Shown here piece after piece: positions 28,606 to 42,333 of a DNA stretch of 57,664 nt. Origin of the DNA: Desulfobacterales bacterium (GTDB lineage Bacteria > Desulfobacterota > Desulfobacteria > Desulfobacterales > JALSRD01); assembly GCA_026984935.1 (NCBI GenBank), contig JALSRD010000053.1, positions 1 to 57,664 of the forward strand. Reading direction: 5' to 3'. The notes beneath the pieces are model-generated. The model was not told the origin of the DNA. It did not search any database and saw nothing but the letters and a program-made list of their open reading frames with translations. The position numbers and the translations under genes are program-made. Each line of letters begins with the position of its first letter. Positions within the stretch are counted from its first letter, which is position 1.

Positions 28606-29532
28606 ATGAAAGTCGCCATGATCGGCCTGGGACGTATGGGAATGAATATGGCCCGCCGCCTGCTCAGGGGCGGGCATCAGGTGGTGGCCTACAACCGCAC
28701 GGCGCAAAAAACCCGTGAACTGATGGCCGAAGGCGCCGAAGGCGCTTTTTCCATGGAGGAAGTCGTCGGCAAGCTCGATGCGCCGCGCATCGTGTGGCTG
28801 ATGCTGCCGGCCGGCAGCGTGGTCGATGCGCATATCGGGCAACTCGGCGGTCTGCTGGCCGCCGGGGACATCGTCGTGGAGGGCGGCAACTCATACTACC
28901 GCGACGATCTGCGGCGCGCCGCGGCGCTTTCCGAACGCGGCATCCGGTACATGGACGTGGGCGTATCCGGCGGCATCTGGGGGCTTGAAAAAGGCTACTG
29001 CATGATGATGGGCGGCGCGAAAGAAACCTTTGCCGTGTTAGAGCCGGTTTTCCGGGTGCTGGCGCCGCCTGAAGGCTACCTGCACTGCGGTCCGGCGGGG
29101 GCCGGACACTTTGTCAAAATGGTGCACAACGGAATCGAGTACGGCCTGATGCAGGCCTACGGCGAGGGGTTCGAACTGCTGCAGGCATCGGACTATGCCC
29201 CGGACTTCGATTACGCCCGCATCGCGCATCTCTGGAACCAGGGCAGCGTAATTCGCTCCTGGCTGCTCGAACTGGCCGAGGATGCCTTCTCCAAAAATGC
29301 CGCCCTGGACGACATCCGGGGCCAGGTAGCGGACTCTGGCGAAGGGCGCTGGACGGTGCAGCAGGCCATCGACACCGCCGTGCCGGCAGAGGTCATCACA
29401 CTGGCGCTGCTGCGACGCTTTCGCTCGCGCCAGCCGGATGCATTCAGCGATAGAGTTGTGGCGGCGCTGCGGCGCGAGTTCGGCGGCCACCCCGTGGTGG
29501 CATCCGGTACGCCTCCGGACGCGGCGCAATAG
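28606..29532 (+). CDS. gnd: 6-phosphogluconate dehydrogenase, short (GndA/YqeC-like) type
   Basis: This 308-residue enzyme oxidatively decarboxylates 6-phosphogluconate to ribulose 5-phosphate. The Rossmann motif GLGRMGMNMA starts the protein, followed by VEGGNSYYRDD, the substrate loop DVGVSGGIWGLEKGY and the catalytic Lys region GHFVKMVHNGIEYG near residue 170. It is the short tetrameric type of about 300 residues, as in many anaerobes, not the 470-residue dimeric type. The cofactor preference cannot be fixed from sequence. GAGGAAGGAG precedes the ATG. It opens the oxidative pentose-phosphate operon, with zwf only 9 bases downstream. Confidence 0.9.
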   Translation: MKVAMIGLGRMGMNMARRLLRGGHQVVAYNRTAQKTRELMAEGAEGAFSMEEVVGKLDAPRIVWLMLPAGSVVDAHIGQLGGLLAAGDIVVEGGNSYYRDDLRRAAALSERGIRYMDVGVSGGIWGLEKGYCMMMGGAKETFAVLEPVFRVLAPPEGYLHCGPAGAGHFVKMVHNGIEYGLMQAYGEGFELLQASDYAPDFDYARIAHLWNQGSVIRSWLLELAEDAFSKNAALDDIRGQVADSGEGRWTVQQAIDTAVPAEVITLALLRRFRSRQPDAFSDRVVAALRREFGGHPVVASGTPPDAAQ

Positions 29533-29541
29533 GCATTGGTG

Positions 29542-31155
29542 ATGAACACTCAGACCCAGCCCCCAGGCGCCCGCGCCAGCACCCGCAGCGTGCCGTCGCA
29601 AAGCCCCGGCGAATTCTGCAGCACCGAGCTTCCCCGCGACCCCTGCAGCATCATCATCCTGGGGGCCACCGGGGATCTGACCGCCCGCAAACTGCTGCCG
29701 GCACTGTACGATCTTTTCCGGCTGGATTTTCTGCCCGACCCCTTCCTGATCGTGGGATGCGGCCGCACCAGCTGGGACGATGAGACCTTCCGTCACCGGA
29801 TGCGGGCCGCCGTGGAAAACAAGGGGCCGCTGGATGGGCGGAAATGGGAGCGCTTTGCATCCCGGCTGTTCTACCAGCCGGTGGACTACCGCTTGCCGGA
29901 ATCTTTTGCCAGGCTTGCGCACGCACTGCGGGAACTGGACCGCCGCCACGGCACGGGCGGTAACCGTATTTTCTACGTGGCCCTGCCGCCCGGCCTCTAC
30001 CTGCCGGTGGCCAGCGGCATCGGTGCCGCCGGGCTGGCCGCTGAAAGGGAAAACGGCAACGGCTGGATCCGTTTCGTGGTGGAGAAGCCCTTCGGGCGTG
30101 ACCTGGCATCGGCCGAGGCGCTGGATCGCGGGCTGCACGTGCATTTCAAGGAACGCCAGATCTTTCGCATCGACCACTATCTGGCCAAGGAGACCGTGCA
30201 GAACGTGCTGGTTTTCCGCTTTGCCAACGCCATCTTCGAGCCCATTTGGAACCGACGCTACATCGACCACGTGGTCATTACGGCCGCCGAGACGCTGGGG
30301 GTGGAGCATCGTGCCGGCTATTACGAACAGGCCGGCGTGCTGCGGGACATGTTCCAGAACCACATGATGCAGTTGCTGGCCCTCACCGCCATGGAGCCCC
30401 CCTCGATCTTCGAGCCCGACCGCGTGCGGGACGAGCGCGGCAAGGTGTTTCGTTCGCTGCGGCCTTTCGATATCGGCAGCCTGGATCGGCATCTCGTGCT
30501 GGGCCAGTACGCGGCGGGCGGGCTGGCCGGCCGGCCGGTGCCGGGCTATCGCCAGGAGCCCGGCGTGGCGCCGGATTCCGTCGTGCCCACCTTCGCCATG
30601 ATGAAAACCTATGTGGAGAACTGGCGCTGGCAGGGAGTTCCCTTTTACCTGGCTTCGGGAAAGCGCCTGGCGCGCAAGATCACCGAAATCGCCATCCAGT
30701 TCAAGGCCGTGCCGCTGTCCATGTTCCGCCACAGCCTGGGTGCGCACATCCCGCCCAACCGGCTCACCCTGAGCGTGTATCCCGAGGAGAGGATCACACT
30801 GACCTTTCAGACCAAGGACCCCGGCGCCAGGGTCTGCCTGCGCTCGGTGACCATGGATTTCAACTACCAGCAGAATGGTCATGGTCCGGTGTTGGATGCC
30901 TACGAAAAGGTGCTGCTGGACTGTATGACGGGTGACCAGATGCTCTTCTGGCGGCAGGACGGCGTGGAAGCCTGCTGGGCCTATCTGACACCGATCCTGG
31001 AGCGCTGCGAAGCCTGCGGCGATCGCGGGAACGGCCTGCACTTCTATGCCGCCGGCAGCTGGGGGCCCGAAGTGTTGCAGGACCTGCTCTCGGAGCGCAG
31101 CGTGCACACGAACCAAATTCCATGGGGCACCCCACAGCGGAAGGACATACCATGA
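29542..31155 (+). CDS. zwf: Glucose-6-phosphate dehydrogenase
   Basis: This 537-residue enzyme oxidises glucose 6-phosphate to 6-phosphogluconolactone. It has the NADP-binding ILGATGDLTARKLLPAL near residue 35, VEKPFGRDLASA, the active-site segment FRIDHYLAKETVQN near residue 210, and FEPIWNRRYIDHV. The usual DHYLGKE reads DHYLAKE here, a conservative Gly-to-Ala change. It is about 40 residues longer than E. coli Zwf, partly through a Pro/Ser-rich N-terminus (residues 1-30) that may not be structured. ATG 29542 follows AGG; GTG and TTG just upstream are alternatives. The stop overlaps the next start as ATGA, so downstream expression is coupled. Confidence 0.92.
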   Translation: MNTQTQPPGARASTRSVPSQSPGEFCSTELPRDPCSIIILGATGDLTARKLLPALYDLFRLDFLPDPFLIVGCGRTSWDDETFRHRMRAAVENKGPLDGRKWERFASRLFYQPVDYRLPESFARLAHALRELDRRHGTGGNRIFYVALPPGLYLPVASGIGAAGLAAERENGNGWIRFVVEKPFGRDLASAEALDRGLHVHFKERQIFRIDHYLAKETVQNVLVFRFANAIFEPIWNRRYIDHVVITAAETLGVEHRAGYYEQAGVLRDMFQNHMMQLLALTAMEPPSIFEPDRVRDERGKVFRSLRPFDIGSLDRHLVLGQYAAGGLAGRPVPGYRQEPGVAPDSVVPTFAMMKTYVENWRWQGVPFYLASGKRLARKITEIAIQFKAVPLSMFRHSLGAHIPPNRLTLSVYPEERITLTFQTKDPGARVCLRSVTMDFNYQQNGHGPVLDAYEKVLLDCMTGDQMLFWRQDGVEACWAYLTPILERCEACGDRGNGLHFYAAGSWGPEVLQDLLSERSVHTNQIPWGTPQRKDIP

Positions 31156-31889
31156 GTGCCCGCACACTGCAGCGCATTGGCATCGTGGCGGCCATCATCG
31201 CCGGCATCGTGCTGTTCAAAGTCCTGGGCCTCGATCGCTACCTGTCGCTGTCCTACCTGAAGGCTTCGCGCGAATCCTTCGCACAGCTCTATGCGCTGCA
31301 TCCGGTGGCGGTCATCGGCGCCTACGCGCTGATTTATGTCGTCGTGACGGCGCTGTCGCTTCCCGGGGCGGCGGTGCTGACCCTGGCCGGCGGGGCGCTG
31401 TTCGGCCTGCTGATCGGCACCGTGGTGATTTCCTTTGCCAGCACCATCGGGGCCACGCTGGCCTGTTTCATCGCGCGTTTTCTGCTGCGCGACTGGGTGC
31501 AGCGGCGCTTCGGCGACAAGCTTAAAACCATCGACCGCGGCATCCGGGAAGAGGGGGCCTTTTACCTTTTTAGCATGCGCCTGATCCCGGCTTTTCCTTT
31601 TTTCGTGATCAACCTGGCCATGGGGCTCACCGAAATGCCGCTGCGCACTTTTTATTGGGTGTCCCAGCTCGGCATGCTGGCGGGTACGATCGTCTACGTC
31701 AACGCCGGCAAGGAACTGGCCAAAATCGATTCCCTGAGCGGTATCCTATCCCCCAGCCTACTGATATCCTTCGTTATTCTGGGGTTGTTTCCGCTGGGCG
31801 TGAAAAAGGCCATGGCCTGGTACCGCAGAAAAAGCGGGCGGCAGACCGGCACGGAGACCGAAGGCAGACCGGAGAGCAAAGACGAATGA
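31152..31889 (+). CDS. VTT-domain (TVP38/DedA-like) membrane protein
   Basis: This 245-residue inner-membrane protein has about five hydrophobic segments and a VTT/SNARE-associated domain. The marks are TALSLPGAAVLTLAGGALFG, GATLACFIARFLLRDW and RLIPAFPFFVINLAMGL. Relatives are implicated in lipid scrambling and envelope homeostasis. It overlaps zwf by four bases upstream and pgl by four bases downstream (both ATGA), with AAGGA before its ATG. It is thus fully embedded in the pentose-phosphate operon, although no link between the two functions is established. The tail after residue 215 is charged and cytoplasmic. Confidence 0.87.
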   Translation: MSARTLQRIGIVAAIIAGIVLFKVLGLDRYLSLSYLKASRESFAQLYALHPVAVIGAYALIYVVVTALSLPGAAVLTLAGGALFGLLIGTVVISFASTIGATLACFIARFLLRDWVQRRFGDKLKTIDRGIREEGAFYLFSMRLIPAFPFFVINLAMGLTEMPLRTFYWVSQLGMLAGTIVYVNAGKELAKIDSLSGILSPSLLISFVILGLFPLGVKKAMAWYRRKSGRQTGTETEGRPESKDE

Positions 31890-32680
31890 AAACCGAAAAC
31901 CGGCGGCCGGCGCTTTGGATCGCTCCCACGGCGCAGGCTCTGGCACGCCGGGCGGCCGAAATGCTGTGCCGTGCGGCCGTGCATGACTGCCGGCAGCAAG
32001 GATACTGCTGCATGGCCCTTTCGGGCGGCACGACGCCGCGTGCCCTGTTTGCCCTGCTGACGGCCCAGCCGCGGGCGGCGGTTTTCCCCTGGCGCCGCAG
32101 CCATTTTTTCTGGGTCGACGAGCGCATGCTGGCTTACGACCACGAGCAGAGCAACTTCGGTGCGGCCAGACGCCTGCTTTTCGACCACGTTGAAGTGCCG
32201 CAAAGCAACCTGAACCCCATGCCCGTCGAGGTCGTTGCCCGGCGGGCAGCCGCGAAATACGAAAAGCGGCTGCGCGTTTTTTTCCGTGCCCGCGGCCGGA
32301 AGGAGCCGGTTTTCGATGTTGTGCTGCTGGGGCTGGGCGCCGACGGGCACACCGCCTCGCTGTTTCCGGGAGCATCCGGGAAGGGCGCCTCCGGCCGCTG
32401 GGTGCGTGCGGTGCAGGGCGGCGAGCCGGCGGTGGCACGCCTGACATTGACCGAAACAGTGCTGAATCAGGCCCGCCGGGTGCTCTTCCTGGTATCGGGC
32501 AGCGCCAAGGCGCCGATGGTCAAAAGCATCCTGGAGTCCGGCCGAACGGATCTGCCGGCGGGACGTATCCGGCCGCAGAGCGGCGATGTGACCTGGCTGC
32601 TGGATTACCGGGCTGCGGCGCTTTTAGATGAAAAAACCGTTGCAGCAATGCGGCCGCCGGCGGACGCTGAAGGCGGCTAA
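31886..32680 (+). CDS. pgl: 6-phosphogluconolactonase
   Basis: This 264-residue protein is of the NagB/SOL/DevB-type 6-phosphogluconolactonase family, which hydrolyses 6-phosphogluconolactone. Conserved segments are ALSGGTTPRALFALL near residue 45, the catalytic-region motif FFWVDERML near 74, DHEQSNFGAAR, and LLGLGADGHTASLFPG near 150. GGAGAG precedes the start, which overlaps the VTT gene stop. Metabolically it works between Zwf and Gnd, so this operon supplies the complete oxidative branch from glucose 6-phosphate to ribulose 5-phosphate. The C-terminal 15 residues are poorly conserved. Confidence 0.9.
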   Translation: MKTENRRPALWIAPTAQALARRAAEMLCRAAVHDCRQQGYCCMALSGGTTPRALFALLTAQPRAAVFPWRRSHFFWVDERMLAYDHEQSNFGAARRLLFDHVEVPQSNLNPMPVEVVARRAAAKYEKRLRVFFRARGRKEPVFDVVLLGLGADGHTASLFPGASGKGASGRWVRAVQGGEPAVARLTLTETVLNQARRVLFLVSGSAKAPMVKSILESGRTDLPAGRIRPQSGDVTWLLDYRAAALLDEKTVAAMRPPADAEGG

Positions 32681-32743
32681 ATCAAAAACGCCGGGACCGG
32701 GAGCGGCTGCAGTCTTGTGAAAACCTTTTATAAGGAAAATGAC

Positions 32744-33865
32744 ATGAACAATATCCAGGCACTGAATCAATTGGGGCAATCGGTGTGGTTCGATTATATC
32801 CGCCGCTCGTTCATCACTTCCGGTAAACTGCAATCCTGGATCGACAAAGGGGTTTCCGGTGTGACATCCAACCCGGCGATTTTCGAAAAGGCCATTTCCG
32901 GCAGCGATGACTACGACCGCGATCTGAAACGCCTGGCACGTGCGAACCTCCCGCTGGCAGAGGTCTATGAAACGCTTGCGCTGGAAGATATCGCCCTGGC
33001 CGCCGACACGCTGCGATCGGTATACGACGGCAGCCACGGGCGCGACGGCTATGTCAGCCTGGAGGTCAACCCGCTGTTGGCCGGCGATACGGATGGGACC
33101 GTGGACGAGGCCAAACGGCTGTTTAGCACCCTTGGGCGGTCCAACGTGATGATCAAGGTGCCGGCCACGGCAGCCGGCATTCCGGCCATTGCCGAGCTGA
33201 TCGGCAGCGGCGTCAACGTGAACGTCACCCTGATCTTCTCGCTGGCCAACTACGAGCAGGTGACCGGCGCATACCTCAGCGGTTTGGAGAGGCTGTCGCA
33301 GAAAGGGCCCACCGTCACCGGCGGGCATCCGGTCGACCGCGTGGCTTCAGTGGCCTCTTTTTTCGTCAGCCGCGTGGACAGCGCCGTCGACAAAGCCCTG
33401 GCCGGCAGCGGCGCGGAAGAGCTGGCCGGCAGGATCGCGATTTCTAATTCCAAAGTGGTTTACCGGCGTTTCGGGCAGATTTTCAGCGGCGCGCGCTGGG
33501 AAGCGCTGGCGGCTAAAGGCGCCGGGGTTCAGCGGGTCCTGTGGGCCAGCACCAGCACCAAGAACCCCGACTACCCCGACACCCTTTACGTGGACGAACT
33601 GATCGGCCCGCATACCGTCAACACCATCCCGCCGGCCACCTTGGACGCCTTTATGGACCATGGCAAAGTCGCCGAAACCCTGATGCGCGGCGTTGATGAG
33701 GCGCACCGCAACCTGGAAAGGCTGGCGGCCCAGGGGATCGACCTGGAACGTATCACCGATATCCTGCAGGTCGAGGGCGTGGCGGCTTTTGCCAAGCCTT
33801 TTGAAAAGCTGATGCAGCGCATCGCAGTCAAGCTGCAGGCGTTCCAACAGCCGCCACCGCAATGA
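32744..33865 (+). CDS. tal: Transaldolase
   Basis: This 373-residue enzyme transfers dihydroxyacetone units between sugar phosphates in the non-oxidative pentose-phosphate branch. It is the long type (about 370 residues, as in actinobacteria and cyanobacteria). The start is SVWFDYIRRSFI, followed by VTSNPAIFEKAI, the Schiff-base lysine in NVMIKVPATAAGI near residue 141, NVTLIFSLANYEQV, and LWASTSTKNPDY. AAGGA precedes the ATG. It follows pgl after 63 bases and is the last gene of the operon; the terminator beyond it serves the opposite strand. Confidence 0.92.
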   Translation: MNNIQALNQLGQSVWFDYIRRSFITSGKLQSWIDKGVSGVTSNPAIFEKAISGSDDYDRDLKRLARANLPLAEVYETLALEDIALAADTLRSVYDGSHGRDGYVSLEVNPLLAGDTDGTVDEAKRLFSTLGRSNVMIKVPATAAGIPAIAELIGSGVNVNVTLIFSLANYEQVTGAYLSGLERLSQKGPTVTGGHPVDRVASVASFFVSRVDSAVDKALAGSGAEELAGRIAISNSKVVYRRFGQIFSGARWEALAAKGAGVQRVLWASTSTKNPDYPDTLYVDELIGPHTVNTIPPATLDAFMDHGKVAETLMRGVDEAHRNLERLAAQGIDLERITDILQVEGVAAFAKPFEKLMQRIAVKLQAFQQPPPQ

Positions 33866-33886
33866 CACTGCACTCCCGCACGGGCC

Positions 33887-33928
33887 GAAAAAACGCCCCG
33901 CAGGCCGAAAAGGACGCATGCGGGGCGT
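33887..33928 (-). terminator. Intrinsic terminator of the solenoid-repeat gene
   Basis: On the minus strand ACGCCCCGC (33928-33920), an 18-base loop and GCGGGGCGT (33901-33893) form a perfect 9-bp stem directly followed by TTTTTT. It lies about 25 bases after the minus-strand stop. There is no T-run on the plus side. Confidence 0.8.
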
Positions 33929-33952
33929 ATAAAAGAAGATGGCGGACCGGCC

Positions 33953-35980
33953 TTAGCGGGCGGCGGCCATTTTCGCGCGGATGCGCGATATCCACTGGCA
34001 ATCGTTCAACGTATCCGCCAGGCTGGCGCGCAGTAGATACAGCAGGCCGCCGGCATCGGGCGACTGTTCGGCCTTGGTGTAGACCTGCCGGCTCCAGTCC
34101 TTGTCGGAAAACTGGCGCGCGATGGTTTCCGCCAGGTCAATCAGGTCGGCGGCGGCCGTGAGCTTTTGTTCGGCGCGCGTGTAAACCTGGCGCAGCAGGT
34201 CCATGTCGCCGGTTTTGGCGAGCACCTGGGCAGCCAGCAGTTCAAAATCGGCGCGGCTGCTGCAGAGGTCCAGCGCCTTGCGGTACAGGGACGCCGCCCA
34301 TTGCGAATCCTCGAAAGTGTCGTGTACGGCGGCAGCGGTGCAGAGGGCGCCGGCCAGATCCGTGCTCTTCTCCTCGGCCGTGGTCATCAGGTCGCGTGCC
34401 CACTTCTCGTCGTTGAACTTGGCAAGTACGGTCTGGGCCAGCCGGGCGTAGTCGGCCTCCTGGCGGCAGGCTTTTTGCCGCTCGGCGTAAAGTCTACGCG
34501 CCCATTTTTCGTCTTTCAGGGTTTCCAGGATGCCCTCGGCCAGGGTGTTGATCTGGTGCGCATCCGGGTTCTTCTTTTCCAGGTCGGCGTAGATCTGGCG
34601 GGCCCACTCTTCATCGCCCAGATCGGCGTGGATTTTGGCCGCGACGGTCAGGTATTCGCTGAAATAGCGGCACAATTCCTCCGCCTTGCGGTAGAGTTTG
34701 CGCGTGTACGGCGCATCCTCGGTGGCCGCCATGACTTCGTGCGCCAGATTGGCCATGGCGATGGCTGTGGTGCATTCCTGTTCCTGCTTGACGAATTCTT
34801 TGTAACGCTCCGGCTGGGCTTCGCGCTTTTCCAGCTGCAACTTGACCTCGGCGGTCCAATCCCCCTCGTCCGCATATTTCAGGATGGCATCGGCGACCTT
34901 TTTAAATTCGGCGACGGTTTTGACCGCCGCTTCGGCCTGTCTGAGAACTTCCAGGGCGCCGGACTTGTCGCCGATGTCGTCGGCCAGAGCTGCGGCCACG
35001 CTGACCAGTTGGTCGGCGTCGGGGCCGGTGGTCGCCGCCTGGCGGTAAAGCTGGCCGGCAAAATCAGCATCGCCGGTATCCTTGAGCACGGCCTTGGCCA
35101 GCTTGATGTATTCGGCATACTTGGAAAACCGGTCACCGGCACTGCGGTAGATGTCCAGCACCAGGGACTTGTCGGCGAGCTTGCCCATTACCGAGGCGGC
35201 CAGTTTCATCAGCTCATCGCCGCTTTCCAGTTTTGCGCGTGCAGCCTGGTAGAGCGTGGCGGCATAGGCCTTGTCCTTGAGGTCGGTCACCGCCGACTCG
35301 GCCAGCTTCATCAACTCGGTACCGGAATCAAGGGTTTCCTGGGCTTTGGCATAAATGGCTTTGGCGCCTTTTTTGTCGGAAAGCACTTCCATGACGCCCT
35401 TGGCCGTAGCGGCGTAATCGTCGCCCTTCTTGCAGATTTCCAGCGCTTGGCCAAAGATGGCTTTGGCCCATTTTTTGTCGTTGAAGACTTCTATGACACT
35501 CTTGGCAAAGCCGGCATAGTCGGCTGGCTTGCTGCATTTTGCCAGGGCCTTGTCGGCGGTCTCCTTGGCCAGTGCTTCGTCTTTGAGGACTTCGGAAACC
35601 GATTGGCTCAGGCTGAGAAAGTCCTGGACCTTGACGCATTTTGCCTGGGCGGCCACAAAGATCTCACGCGCACTGTCGCTATCGCCCATGTCCGTGCAGG
35701 CCTTGGCCAGGTTGACGAAATCCTGGACGTTCATGCAGTAGTCTTTGGCCTGGCCCAGGTACTGCTTGGCGCGTTCGGCATCTTCGAGGGCTTCCTTGAC
35801 ACCACCGGCCAGCATGACGAAGTCGTCGGCGGTTTCGGCCCAGTCGGCGCCCTCATCGAAAAGGTCCGAAGCCCACTTTTTGTCAGACAGCTTCGCGACC
35901 ACTTCTTTGGCCAGCTGGACATACTCCTCGGTGGACTGACAAGCCTCTTCTTTTTCCTGCAGCTCTTCTTTTGCTCCCAT
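33953..35980 (-). CDS. Helical solenoid protein of about nineteen 34-residue repeats
   Basis: Nearly the whole 675-residue protein is a tandem repeat with a period of 34 residues (one is 33). The consensus is roughly D-[YFL]-x-x-L-A-x-x-V-x-x-x-L-x-D-K-x-W-A-x-x-[IL]-Y-x-x-A-x-x-x-C. Clear examples are ADYAGFAKSVIEVFNDKKWA and ADYARLAQTVLAKFNDEKWA. I count about nineteen units, with one longer, disturbed unit near the middle (around residues 375-410). The period and helix-pair pattern are TPR-like, but the Asp-Lys-x-Trp-Ala core and frequent terminal Cys are unlike standard TPR. There is no signal peptide or membrane segment, so it is cytoplasmic. A near-consensus promoter precedes it and a strong terminator follows. 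It is probably a scaffold; no partner is identifiable. Confidence 0.85.
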   Translation of the reverse strand: MGAKEELQEKEEACQSTEEYVQLAKEVVAKLSDKKWASDLFDEGADWAETADDFVMLAGGVKEALEDAERAKQYLGQAKDYCMNVQDFVNLAKACTDMGDSDSAREIFVAAQAKCVKVQDFLSLSQSVSEVLKDEALAKETADKALAKCSKPADYAGFAKSVIEVFNDKKWAKAIFGQALEICKKGDDYAATAKGVMEVLSDKKGAKAIYAKAQETLDSGTELMKLAESAVTDLKDKAYAATLYQAARAKLESGDELMKLAASVMGKLADKSLVLDIYRSAGDRFSKYAEYIKLAKAVLKDTGDADFAGQLYRQAATTGPDADQLVSVAAALADDIGDKSGALEVLRQAEAAVKTVAEFKKVADAILKYADEGDWTAEVKLQLEKREAQPERYKEFVKQEQECTTAIAMANLAHEVMAATEDAPYTRKLYRKAEELCRYFSEYLTVAAKIHADLGDEEWARQIYADLEKKNPDAHQINTLAEGILETLKDEKWARRLYAERQKACRQEADYARLAQTVLAKFNDEKWARDLMTTAEEKSTDLAGALCTAAAVHDTFEDSQWAASLYRKALDLCSSRADFELLAAQVLAKTGDMDLLRQVYTRAEQKLTAAADLIDLAETIARQFSDKDWSRQVYTKAEQSPDAGGLLYLLRASLADTLNDCQWISRIRAKMAAAR

Positions 35981-36337
35981 TTTCGGCTCCTTGTGGTCAT
36001 GCGGTGTCTAAAGATCCAGTGCCGGCGCAGGCCGGGCCTTGGGCAGCACTTACATACTCTTTATACACCTAATATCATTGCCAATGTAGTCTGCCACTAT
36101 ATGATAAGCAGGGCCTAGTGTCAACAGTTAATCGATGACTTTTTCGGTGCGCGCGCATTGAACGCATGCCTTGGCCGCGGTGCGGCTGAAAAGACGCCCT
36201 GTGCCCGCGCCGCCGGGACCGCCGTGCAAACCGGGTATTGTAAAAATCGTTGCCACGGCGATTTGTTGTGTGGTACCCCCGGGGTCGGAAGGTCCGCCTG
36301 TATTGAAGCCGTGTTGCCCAGCTTGAAAGCCGAACCC
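35981..36337. other. Divergent promoter region
   Basis: About 357 bases lie between the solenoid-repeat gene (minus) and the SpoIIE phosphatase (plus). It holds the near-consensus minus-strand promoter at 36096-36124 and an AT-rich leader of about 110 bases. No coding potential is visible apart from possible N-terminal extensions of the phosphatase. Confidence 0.6.
36096..36124 (-). promoter_or_regulatory. Near-consensus sigma-70 promoter of the solenoid-repeat gene
   Basis: On the minus strand TTGACA (36124-36119) and TATAGT (36101-36096) are separated by exactly 17 bases. It is the best promoter match I found in the window and predicts high constitutive transcription of the repeat protein, with a leader of about 110 bases. 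Confidence 0.75.
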
Positions 36338-39889: not shown

Positions 39890-40507
39890 CTACCCGCTTT
39901 TCGTCAGCCTTTTGAGCGCCTCTGCGATCTCGCGGCTGAGGTCCGCCAGCGCTTTGCTCTGGGCTGACGCCAACGCGGTGTAGGTGCTGCCCTTCACGGG
40001 CTTGCTGATGGTTGCCCGTTTGGCCAAAAGCGTTTTTTTCCGGGCGTTGAACAGGAACCAGCGGGCGTTCAGCGTGACGCTTTCTCCCAGGCGCCCGTCA
40101 AAGCGCATCACGTTGACTGTGGCCTGATACCGCACGGGCACGCTTTTGCCCCAGGGATAGGTGGCAATTCGGTTCGTGGGCAGCAGGACCGCAAGGTTCT
40201 CGACCAGCACGCGGGTAAAGGTGTTACGCAATTCACCGGCCCAGTGGTGGTCATCGGAGATCGCGATGACGTTTTGCCCCTTGCGGGTGACGATCTGGGG
40301 GCGGTTCAGGTAGTCCGGCAGTACTACCGGCCCCACGCCAATAATCGGGCCTGTGGTGCCGTGTTCTGCGGGCGCGGGCGATGGCGGCGCAGGCAGGGGG
40401 CTCAAGGTGTAGAATCGAACCGGCGCATTGCCCGCACAGGCACAGAGCACCAGCAGGATGCCGGCTAACATACCGCGGGCGGCATATCGGTAAGCGTTGG
40501 GTTGCAT
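39890..40507 (-). CDS. PqiC-like lipoprotein of a lipid transport system
   Basis: This 205-residue lipoprotein has a signal with lipobox-like LVLCAC-AG (lipidated Cys about residue 24) followed by the ABC-type transport auxiliary lipoprotein (PqiC/DUF330) domain: VRFYTLSPL, IGVGPVVLPDYLNRPQIVTR, and HHWAGELRNTFTRVLVENLA. PqiC-like proteins are outer-membrane partners of MCE (mammalian cell entry) lipid-transfer systems. It starts one base after the MCE gene stop and is the last gene of the operon. Its presence in the place of a soluble MlaC suggests a Pqi/Mce-type arrangement in which lipid passes through an MCE bridge (inference). Confidence 0.85.
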   Translation of the reverse strand: MQPNAYRYAARGMLAGILLVLCACAGNAPVRFYTLSPLPAPPSPAPAEHGTTGPIIGVGPVVLPDYLNRPQIVTRKGQNVIAISDDHHWAGELRNTFTRVLVENLAVLLPTNRIATYPWGKSVPVRYQATVNVMRFDGRLGESVTLNARWFLFNARKKTLLAKRATISKPVKGSTYTALASAQSKALADLSREIAEALKRLTKSG

Positions 40508-40508
40508 T

Positions 40509-41582
40509 TTACCGTCCTTCTGGGCGTAGGCGCCCCCGGATCAGGGCATTGGGGTTGCGGTTCAGGTAATCCGCCAGAAAGCGGATGGCGCGCGATGCTT
40601 CGGAAAGCTCTTGCAACGCATCGTGCAGGTCGTTCAGCATAGGGGCGTCCGGATCGAAAAGCGCGCCCATGTCGGCCACCGTGCGCCGGATCTGTTCCAG
40701 ACTGGTCTGGAGGCTCTCGAAACTCTTTGCAAGCGCCGGCTTCAGCGACCGGGTCTGGGCGTTGAGCTCACGGGCCAGTTGGCGGACCTCGGCCAGGGTT
40801 TGGTCGATGCTGCTGCTCAATCTGTCCAGCCGGCCGTTGGCGTTGCCGGCCAGTGTGTTGAACGCATTCAAAGCACTGCGGGCATCGTTGCCCAGCGGTC
40901 CGACCTGGGCGTCGAGATGTTCGCTGAGCCGGCGGATGCCCTCGAGGGCGGCATTGAGCGAAGACGGAATCCTGGCGGTCTCCGGCGAGCTTATCAGGCG
41001 CTCGAATCCGTCGACGGCCGAATTGATCTTTTTGGCCATTTTCTTGAGGTCCAGCTTCTTTAAGGTCTGAAAGAACAGTTCGAAGTTGGAGGGCACGGTG
41101 GGCAGTTCCGGAATTTGCGGGAGACCCTTGACTCGGCTGGCGGCGCCGGACAGGTGGATGGGGGTCTTGGGATAAAAGCCGAACTCGATCATCAGCTTGC
41201 CGGTCACCGGGCTCAGAAGTTGCAGCTGGGCCCTGAGCCCCCGCCGGATCAACTGCTTAAGCTCTTCATCAGACGTTTCCTGCTCGTTGTCGGCCATGCG
41301 GATGCGGTCGGGTTCGATTTCGATGATCACCGGGATGCGCAGCGTCAGTTTCTGCAGGTCGGCGACCAGAAAGACGTCCCTCACCGACCCGATCTTGACG
41401 CCCTGGAAAACCACCGGTGCACCGGCGGTGAGCCCCTTGACGGATTCATTGAAGTAGAGCACAAACTGCCGGCGGGTTTTGAAGAGCTTCCCGCTGCCCA
41501 GCACCAGCACGGCGGCCACGGCCAGCGCCAGCGCACCGACTACGAAAGCTCCGATCATGGTCTTGTTGACCGGTTTAGACAT
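40509..41582 (-). CDS. MCE-domain (MlaD/PqiB-type) substrate-binding protein
   Basis: This 357-residue protein has an N-terminal membrane anchor (TMIGAFVVGALALAVAAVLVLG, residues 8-30), one MCE domain (about 38-120: VLYFNESVKGLTAGAPVVFQ, VKIGSVRDV), and a long alpha-helical C-terminal region (about 170-330) like the tunnel-forming helices of longer MCE proteins. It forms the periplasmic lipid-conducting ring of the ABC system. ATG 41582 overlaps the ATPase stop and has GAGGTG upstream; a GTG at 41591 is less likely. One MCE domain and a long helix distinguish it from E. coli MlaD (about 180 residues). Confidence 0.88.
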   Translation of the reverse strand: MSKPVNKTMIGAFVVGALALAVAAVLVLGSGKLFKTRRQFVLYFNESVKGLTAGAPVVFQGVKIGSVRDVFLVADLQKLTLRIPVIIEIEPDRIRMADNEQETSDEELKQLIRRGLRAQLQLLSPVTGKLMIEFGFYPKTPIHLSGAASRVKGLPQIPELPTVPSNFELFFQTLKKLDLKKMAKKINSAVDGFERLISSPETARIPSSLNAALEGIRRLSEHLDAQVGPLGNDARSALNAFNTLAGNANGRLDRLSSSIDQTLAEVRQLARELNAQTRSLKPALAKSFESLQTSLEQIRRTVADMGALFDPDAPMLNDLHDALQELSEASRAIRFLADYLNRNPNALIRGRLRPEGR

Positions 41583-42333
41583 TTTTTTCACCTCGGGTCA
41601 GGAAAAGCCGCACCTTGGAATTGGTGGACTCCGCCAGCAGGCGGTGGGGGTCTCCGCTGGCGATCATGGTGCGGCTGTCCGGATCCAGGAAAACAGAGTT
41701 CGTGGCAATGGCGAAGATGCTGGGCAATTCGTGGGTCACCAGCACCACCGTGGTGCCCAGGCTCTCGCGGATTTCCAGGATCAAGTCGTCCAGGCTGCGG
41801 GAGCTGATGGGATCCAGCCCGGCCGAAGGTTCGTCGAAAAAAACGATTTCGGGGTCCAGCGCGATGGCGCGCGCCAGCCCCGCGCGTTTGCGCATGCCGC
41901 CGCTGATTTCGGCCGGGTAGTAATCTTCAAATCCCGCCAACCCTACCAGGGACAGTTTGTACGAAACCAGTTCGTGGATCTGGCGGGCCGAAAGCGTCGT
42001 ATGTTCCTCCAGCGGCAGGGCCACGTTTTCCGCCAGGGTCATGGCGCTCCACAAGGCACCGTTCTGGTAGGTGACGCCGATGTGCTTCATAATGTCGCTG
42101 CGCCGGCTTTCATCCAGCCGCCAGAAATTGACATCATCGATAAAAACCTCGCCGGCGGCCGGCGGTTTGAGGCCGATGAGGATCTTCATCAGCGTGCTCT
42201 TGCCGCAGCCGCTGCCGCCCATGATGACGAAAATATCGCCGTGGTTGATGTCGAAGTTCAGACCGCGCATCAACACGAAACCGCCGTAGGCCATGGTGAG
42301 ACCGCGCACGCGGATGTGGGCTTTGGCGTTCAT
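41575..42333 (-). CDS. MlaF-type ABC ATPase
   Basis: This 252-residue ATPase powers the MCE lipid transporter. It has Walker A MGGSGCGKST near residue 38, the Mla-typical Q-loop VTYQNGALWSAMTLAENVALP, signature ISGGMRKRAGLARAIA near 140, Walker B IVFFDEPSAGLDP near 163 and H-loop VTHE. The ATG at 42333 overlaps the permease stop (ATGA) and the 3' end overlaps the MCE gene, so permease, ATPase and MCE protein are translationally coupled. Confidence 0.9.
   Translation of the reverse strand: MNAKAHIRVRGLTMAYGGFVLMRGLNFDINHGDIFVIMGGSGCGKSTLMKILIGLKPPAAGEVFIDDVNFWRLDESRRSDIMKHIGVTYQNGALWSAMTLAENVALPLEEHTTLSARQIHELVSYKLSLVGLAGFEDYYPAEISGGMRKRAGLARAIALDPEIVFFDEPSAGLDPISSRSLDDLILEIRESLGTTVVLVTHELPSIFAIATNSVFLDPDSRTMIASGDPHRLLAESTNSKVRLFLTRGEKNV

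Follow-up and report, generated by a model that had tools for sequence, protein, structure and literature searches.

The window analysed here, a stretch of 57,664 nucleotides from a Desulfobacterales bacterium, contains a gene for a protein made of 34-residue repeats. The question that this locus raises is what kind of repeat protein is encoded and what it could do for the cell. The protein is a real, old, and lineage-restricted alpha-solenoid, two-armed as modelled, with its own variety of repeat, and it is probably abundant.

The gene and its repeat unit

The open reading frame at 33953-35980 (-) encodes 675 amino acids, in agreement with the position given for it in the preliminary description, and can be annotated as a nineteen-hairpin alpha-solenoid. 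Its start codon and N-terminus are kept among the aligned relatives, and the organism's own genome carries one copy. A plus-strand ORF at 34166-36118 (650 amino acids) covers much of the same stretch. It is read as a codon-usage shadow, antisense to the repeat gene, because the minus frame encodes a protein that is conserved across 41 aligned relatives and because mutually similar antisense frames at other loci overlap the repeat gene (except for one window ORF that was joined to their cluster). In-frame stops were reported in six orthologues, the sixth being G367. In the five that were examined (L003, L006, L007, L014, and L019), the stop is the true gene end, passed by aligner read-through.

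The protein was proposed to be cytoplasmic, and this is borne out. It has no membrane-like segment (maximum KD19 of 1.02) and a pI of 4.9, and the pI lies between 4.45 and 5.10 in 42 of 42 family members. Most of its units do not match a family of known function with confidence. Pfam gave no model above its curated cut-off, PHROGs gave nothing below E 0.07, and the one NCBIfam match covers 18 residues; no catalytic domain was found above cut-off in Pfam or NCBIfam. Rfam gave nothing above gathering score between 32000 and 40000. No paper on the repeat protein was found among titles and abstract openings, and the passages available from PMC11887813 do not mention it. An origin from a mobile element or phage was also considered and rejected. 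No tblastn match was found among 72,556 plasmid and 50,697 phage records, and viral contigs gave no confirmed match in a single-sequence search.

The 34-residue period had been claimed from the sequence, and it is clear in self-comparison, with maxima at offset 34 (z 19.7) and offset 68 (z 15.6) against 200 shuffles. Unit statistics were drawn from 647 distinct regular units at 17 positions in 42 family members (the window protein and 41 others), and the commonest letters are DYVKLAKAVLEDLGDKEWAKEIYKKAEEKCTTAD. The Asp at position 15 is present in 92% of these units, followed by A6 (72%), A26 (70%), A19 (68%), L5 (66%), L13 (57%), and Y23 (52%). The core of the unit is this Asp with small packing residues, and the Lys and Trp vary. 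An invariant-looking D-K-x-W-A core had been described at the helix turn. The Asp and Ala of that description are upheld, but only the Asp is near-invariant; K16 is found in 35% of the units and W18 in 31%, and the final Cys (C30) in 38%. An Asp at each hairpin turn, together with the Ala and Leu packing positions, would hold the stack together, as their conservation suggests.

The turn Asp residues run from 33 to 338 and from 422 to 660 in 34-residue steps, apart from one first-arm step of 33. The gap from 338 to 422 is 84 residues, or two steps plus 16, and marks a phase break. With a unit profile built without the window and two of the relatives (L051 and L052), 17 units of the window protein are recovered at 18-32 bits. 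The central junction (residues 356-403) scores -0.3 bits.

Predicted structure and relation to other repeat families

A structure was predicted with AlphaFold from an alignment of the 42 family members. The model of the window protein has a mean pLDDT of 92.2 and a pTM of 0.59, and the arrangement of its arms is uncertain because of this pTM. It contains 40 helices, which are a cap, 19 hairpins, and one unpaired helix at residues 390-402, so that the estimate of about nineteen repeats made from the sequence corresponds to exactly 19 modelled hairpins. The N-terminal cap helix (residues 2-13, the KEELxEKxExC region; 35942-35977, -) is the most conserved part of the protein. It is followed by an N-terminal arm of hairpins 1-11 (residues 17-388; 34817-35932, -). 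The central junction (residues 356-403; 34772-34915, -), assigned from the model and from conservation, comprises an irregular hairpin 11 and the unpaired helix. The C-terminal arm contains hairpins 12-19 (residues 406-674; 33959-34765, -), and its last units are the least conserved. As modelled, the nineteen hairpins would stack as a coil, and the odd helix, placed between hairpin 11 and hairpin 12, would break the phase to give two arms of 11 and 8 hairpins. The Desulfobacter latus form was predicted with a mean pLDDT of 91.9, and the 637-residue form is modelled with 38 helices against 40, exactly two fewer.

The closest comparison is with the TPR solenoids. Like them, the protein has a 34-residue helix-turn-helix unit, Ala-rich packing of helix B, and a stacked alpha-solenoid; a TPR array is structurally a stack of 34-residue antiparallel helix pairs, and the period of 34 and the 19 predicted hairpins agree with this. 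It is reasonable to ask if this is an ordinary diverged TPR protein without particular novelty. In addition to the hairpins themselves, hhalign aligned the unit with a small TPR profile at 72% probability over 24 columns, and some members give weak TPR matches at E <= 0.01, to TPR_14, TPR_8, and TPR_7 in Pfam (5, 4, and 2 of 42 members) and to the TPR-type NCBIfam models PilW, PrsT, and LapB (5, 3, and 2 of 42). A six-copy consensus also passes the TPR_2 and TPR_8 cut-offs, as it does those of RPN7 and of unrelated models such as DUF3642. However, the best Pfam TPR model in the window protein, TPR_7, reaches 15.1 bits, where the cut-off is 27.9. The small TPR profile (13 units, of which one protein supplied 11) scores 6.4 bits at best, a designed-TPR profile scores -0.1 bits, and the hhalign register is off by one residue. 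The core of the family, L-A-x-x-V...L-x-D...A...Y-x-x-A, is likewise shifted by one residue relative to TPR, and a two-unit profile is confined to the repeat-protein family in the genomes searched. Since the leave-out profile recovers 17 units and the TPR profile no more than 6.4 bits with a shifted alignment, the unit is TPR-like yet a distinct kind, in line with the earlier view of a TPR-length unit with a differing core. An ordinary TPR protein is considered unlikely.

Another class of helical-hairpin solenoid, the HAT proteins (CstF-77, Rna14, Prp39, and spliceosomal proteins), is frequent among the structural matches, with Z of about 9-11.6. The (A/V)R-x-I-Y-x-x-A pattern of the repeat unit is one that we take to resemble HAT helix B. 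HAT_PRP39_C gives weak matches, with a best E of 6.6e-5, in 6 of 42 members and is not listed for the window protein. These likenesses could point to an RNA-binding solenoid of the HAT or PPR type. Against this, the HAT proteins are eukaryotic RNA-processing factors, whereas the repeat protein is bacterial and acidic in every member, and the best structural Z is 12.7, below the value of about 13 under which, as the tool cautions, a match may reflect just a common repeat arrangement. RNA binding by such a solenoid is regarded as extremely improbable. That best match is a designed circular repeat protein, and the structural searches gave nothing that rises above unrelated repeat proteins. The profile matches in the PDB are also headed by designed helical repeats. 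The absence of a standout structural match does not demonstrate a new fold.

Two other models deserve mention. Talin_R4 falls below its Pfam cut-off in the window protein (24.6 bits against 27) and is found in 15 of 42 members at E <= 0.01, with a best value of 3.2e-9. These matches are read as generic helix similarity. The NCBIfam model FimV_Cterm (TIGR03504) passes its cut-off at residues 90-107 of the window protein (34.7 against 30.65 bits), and it matches this one member of the 42. FimV/HubP proteins possess an N-terminal LysM, a membrane segment, and a conserved C-terminal domain. The likeness to that C-terminal domain is limited to 18 residues that pass the cut-off. Unlike FimV/HubP, the window protein has no LysM (Pfam, E up to 10) and no membrane-like segment, and the match does not sit at the C-terminus. 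Automatic annotation may nevertheless misname the repeat protein FimV/HubP as a result of this score. The family is thus one for which no Pfam or NCBIfam model matches across members beyond chance-like levels.

Distribution and conservation of the family

Within the order, 389 genomes were searched and 65 had a match. Three weak matches (G089, G143, and G175) and one short partial relative (G269) were set aside, leaving 61 genomes in 22 genera. In a draw of 395 genomes from the phylum, a search at E 1e-5 gave the window's own genome and one weak partial match, and the two-unit profile at E 1e-6 gave the window gene and no other protein. Among 58 relatives the same profile matched 10 at E 1e-5, each time within the repeat ORF alone. 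Where two matches are listed for a genome, their coordinates indicate either fragments of a single ORF or a gene that is divided between contigs. The genome collection supplied 57 loci, and among the carriers with a name are Desulfobacter, Desulfobacula, Desulfotignum, Desulfosarcina, Desulfofustis, Desulforhopalus, and Desulfobulbus. The protein is probably abundant in marine sulfate reducers, namely the first three of these and relatives of Desulfosarcina.

The tree of 42 rows has two main parts, the Desulfobulbales-type copies (6 of 42) and the rest. The copies from two metagenome-assembled genomes labelled SAR324 (L067 and L104) are counted among these six because they group with the Desulfobulbales-type copies, possibly through mislabelling or a binning error. 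The length of the orthologues is nearly fixed. The exception is the Desulfobacter/Desulfobacula/Desulfotignum clade, which is exactly one unit short and lacks residues ~196-229 (34 residues; 35294-35395, -) as a gap in the alignment. This form of 637-641 residues accounts for 17 of the 42 rows and is a single change on the tree (100/100). Under the midpoint root, it appears as a loss.

The repeats had been called diverged, old, and maintained, and comparison of the window protein with the 41 others agrees with this. Units at the same position are 44% identical and units at different positions 22%, and for 514 of 663 units the best match in the window protein is at their own position. These values indicate that the array is old, with each unit kept in place. 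Short relatives of the unit are also present in other Desulfobacterota, at L110:4784-5251 (156 amino acids) and L114:3237-3878 (214 amino acids). These short ORFs have no Pfam match, and the one in L114 is near transposase-like and primase-like ORFs, as named by eye.

Conservation is uneven along the protein. Residues 1-16 are the most conserved of 21 segments (3.46 bits), followed by 17-50 (3.20) and 356-388 (3.01), and residues 576-675 are among the least conserved at 1.98-2.45 bits. Invariant residues outside the repeat consensus are clustered at the N-terminus (E5, E6, L7, and E9, within residues 5-9) and in the junction (F359, W375, Q382, R386, Y393, and E400), and others are found outside both clusters (W47, K114, L346, W459, and S653). 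From this pattern we infer that the two clusters could be contact or hinge sites. The invariant cap and junction residues would be the likeliest contacts for a conserved partner. A search for the partner could start from these two candidate sites and from the one unit by which one clade differs.

Expression, neighbours, and possible roles

The signals around the gene are those of a single-gene unit. A putative sigma-70-type promoter, TTGACA-17-TATAGT, is present at 36096-36124 (-), where a near-consensus promoter had been noted. It matches the consensus at 11 of 12 bases, is the best of 4 promoter-like sites found against 0.9 expected, and has a score that none of 60 shuffles of its region reached. 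In L051, the nearest relative, the promoter-like sequence is TTGACA-17-TATAGG. Among 51 upstream regions, TTGACA occurs within 300 bases in 19, against 4.5 expected and a maximum of 10 in 40 shuffles, and the mean two-box score is slightly over chance (9.06 against 8.44). A ribosome-binding site, AAGGAG, can be read from the sequence at 35987-35992 (-), and a loose pattern, used without a control, finds a purine-rich site in all 51 upstream regions. An intrinsic terminator at 33887-33928 (-), also noted earlier, combines a long G+C-rich hairpin with a run of six U after it. The RNA fold of 33880-33952 has an energy of -32 kcal/mol (z -3.4), which 0 of 200 shuffles equal. The pattern scan, with its loop limit of 8, omits this terminator, whose folded loop is 10, and the 4 terminator-like sites that it does report equal the 4.0 expected.

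Codon adaptation to the ribosomal cluster was examined in eight genomes, of which seven were usable (G001 has no L2 match). In all seven, the repeat gene comes close to the ribosomal-cluster median or exceeds it. Its rank among nearby ORFs that were chosen mechanically is 1-3 in six genomes, and in the window it is 6 of 36. G256, G280, G244, and G111 show a clear contrast with the neighbouring ORFs; the contrast is weak or absent in G000, G054, and G063, where the signal says little because codon usage barely separates ribosomal from other ORFs. Taken together, the promoter, the terminator, and codon usage make high expression of the repeat gene likely. Of the earlier proposal of a highly expressed single-gene unit, the single-gene part is confirmed, and the high expression is indicated by the TTGACA excess and by codon usage.

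What could such a protein do? The reading that we hold to be a little better than even is an abundant cytoplasmic stand-alone alpha-solenoid that binds other proteins as a scaffold or adaptor, in the manner of TPR proteins that lack an enzymatic domain. It follows from the solenoid predicted with high pLDDT for both the window protein and the Desulfobacter latus form; from the single copy, the near-fixed length, and the orthology of individual units that extends from Desulfobacterales to Desulfobulbales-type genomes; and from the two-unit profile that finds the repeat ORF alone. It follows also from the high codon adaptation with an own promoter and terminator, from the clustering of invariant non-repeat residues at 5-9 and 359-400, and from an acidic sequence with neither a membrane-like segment nor a catalytic domain above cut-off. 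Counted against it are that a scaffold is the default for any solenoid, that no neighbour is shared across lineages, that the codon signal is uninformative in three genomes, that the pTM is 0.59, and that some invariant residues lie outside the two sites. Probable abundance and a repeat solenoid with a well-conserved N-terminal cap would also suit a filament-forming structural protein whose molecules join end to end. Against this, conservation is lowest in the C-terminal units, with the bit scores given above for 576-675 against 1-16, which is unlike a conserved end-to-end contact, and filaments are judged very unlikely.

A more specific role may be sought among the neighbours. No neighbour is conserved across lineages in the loci compared, and neighbours vary by lineage. 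The recurring low-copy neighbour is feoB, which lies within 3 kb in 9 of 61 genomes (G063, G166, G199, G251, G302, G319, G322, G369, and G383) and in 3 of the 22 carrying genera. By a conservative count, 0.2 genera are expected (P 0.0007), for a family and distance picked post hoc. The two genes point away from each other in two of these genera and towards each other in the third, and feoB is 2.2 kb from the repeat gene in L067. In Desulfobacter vibrioformis (L095:1796-5776), a putative transporter gene, feoA, and feoB, named by eye, adjoin the repeat gene divergently, and in L073 it is flanked on both sides by ORFs that by eye resemble TonB-dependent receptors. A scaffold or sensor dedicated to the uptake and homeostasis of ferrous iron, working with Feo transporters, is one role that these neighbours could suggest. 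This seems quite unlikely. The feoB family and distance were selected after the data were inspected, so the proximity is a lead and not a result. The neighbour is absent in 19 of 22 genera, in 6 of 7 Desulfobulbales-type genomes, and in the window, and within the Desulfobacter-type genus g82 it is nearby in 6 of 16 genomes. The best Fur-like box in the window is at chance (11 of 19 bases, p 0.29).

Fur regulation was also considered, across 55 upstream regions with a 19-base Fur-like consensus, and rejected. L056 gave p 0.01, L102 gave p 0.035, and the rest were at 0.07 or above; two of 55 under 0.05 is what chance gives. A broader proposal is offered as a long shot: the repeat would be a separate helical-hairpin class that arose in the Desulfobacterota and serves in a single protein, a two-armed hub with one gene copy and strong expression. 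Such a hub would organise a conserved cytoplasmic complex in sulfate reducers and might be linked to the supply of ferrous iron for their iron-rich respiratory enzymes. The general scaffold or adaptor remains the preferred reading.

The other multi-locus neighbour clusters are generic (sensor kinases and ABC proteins, by eye) or belong to a single clade. In the window, the repeat gene is isolated, with the end of a pentose-phosphate set on one side and a divergent SpoIIE-domain gene on the other. The set, at 28606-33865 (+), encodes 6-phosphogluconate dehydrogenase, glucose-6-phosphate dehydrogenase, a VTT-domain membrane protein, 6-phosphogluconolactonase, and transaldolase. Further along, at 39890-41591 (-), genes for an ABC-type auxiliary lipoprotein (ABC_trans_aux) and an MlaD-domain protein are present, perhaps as an Mla-like transport set.
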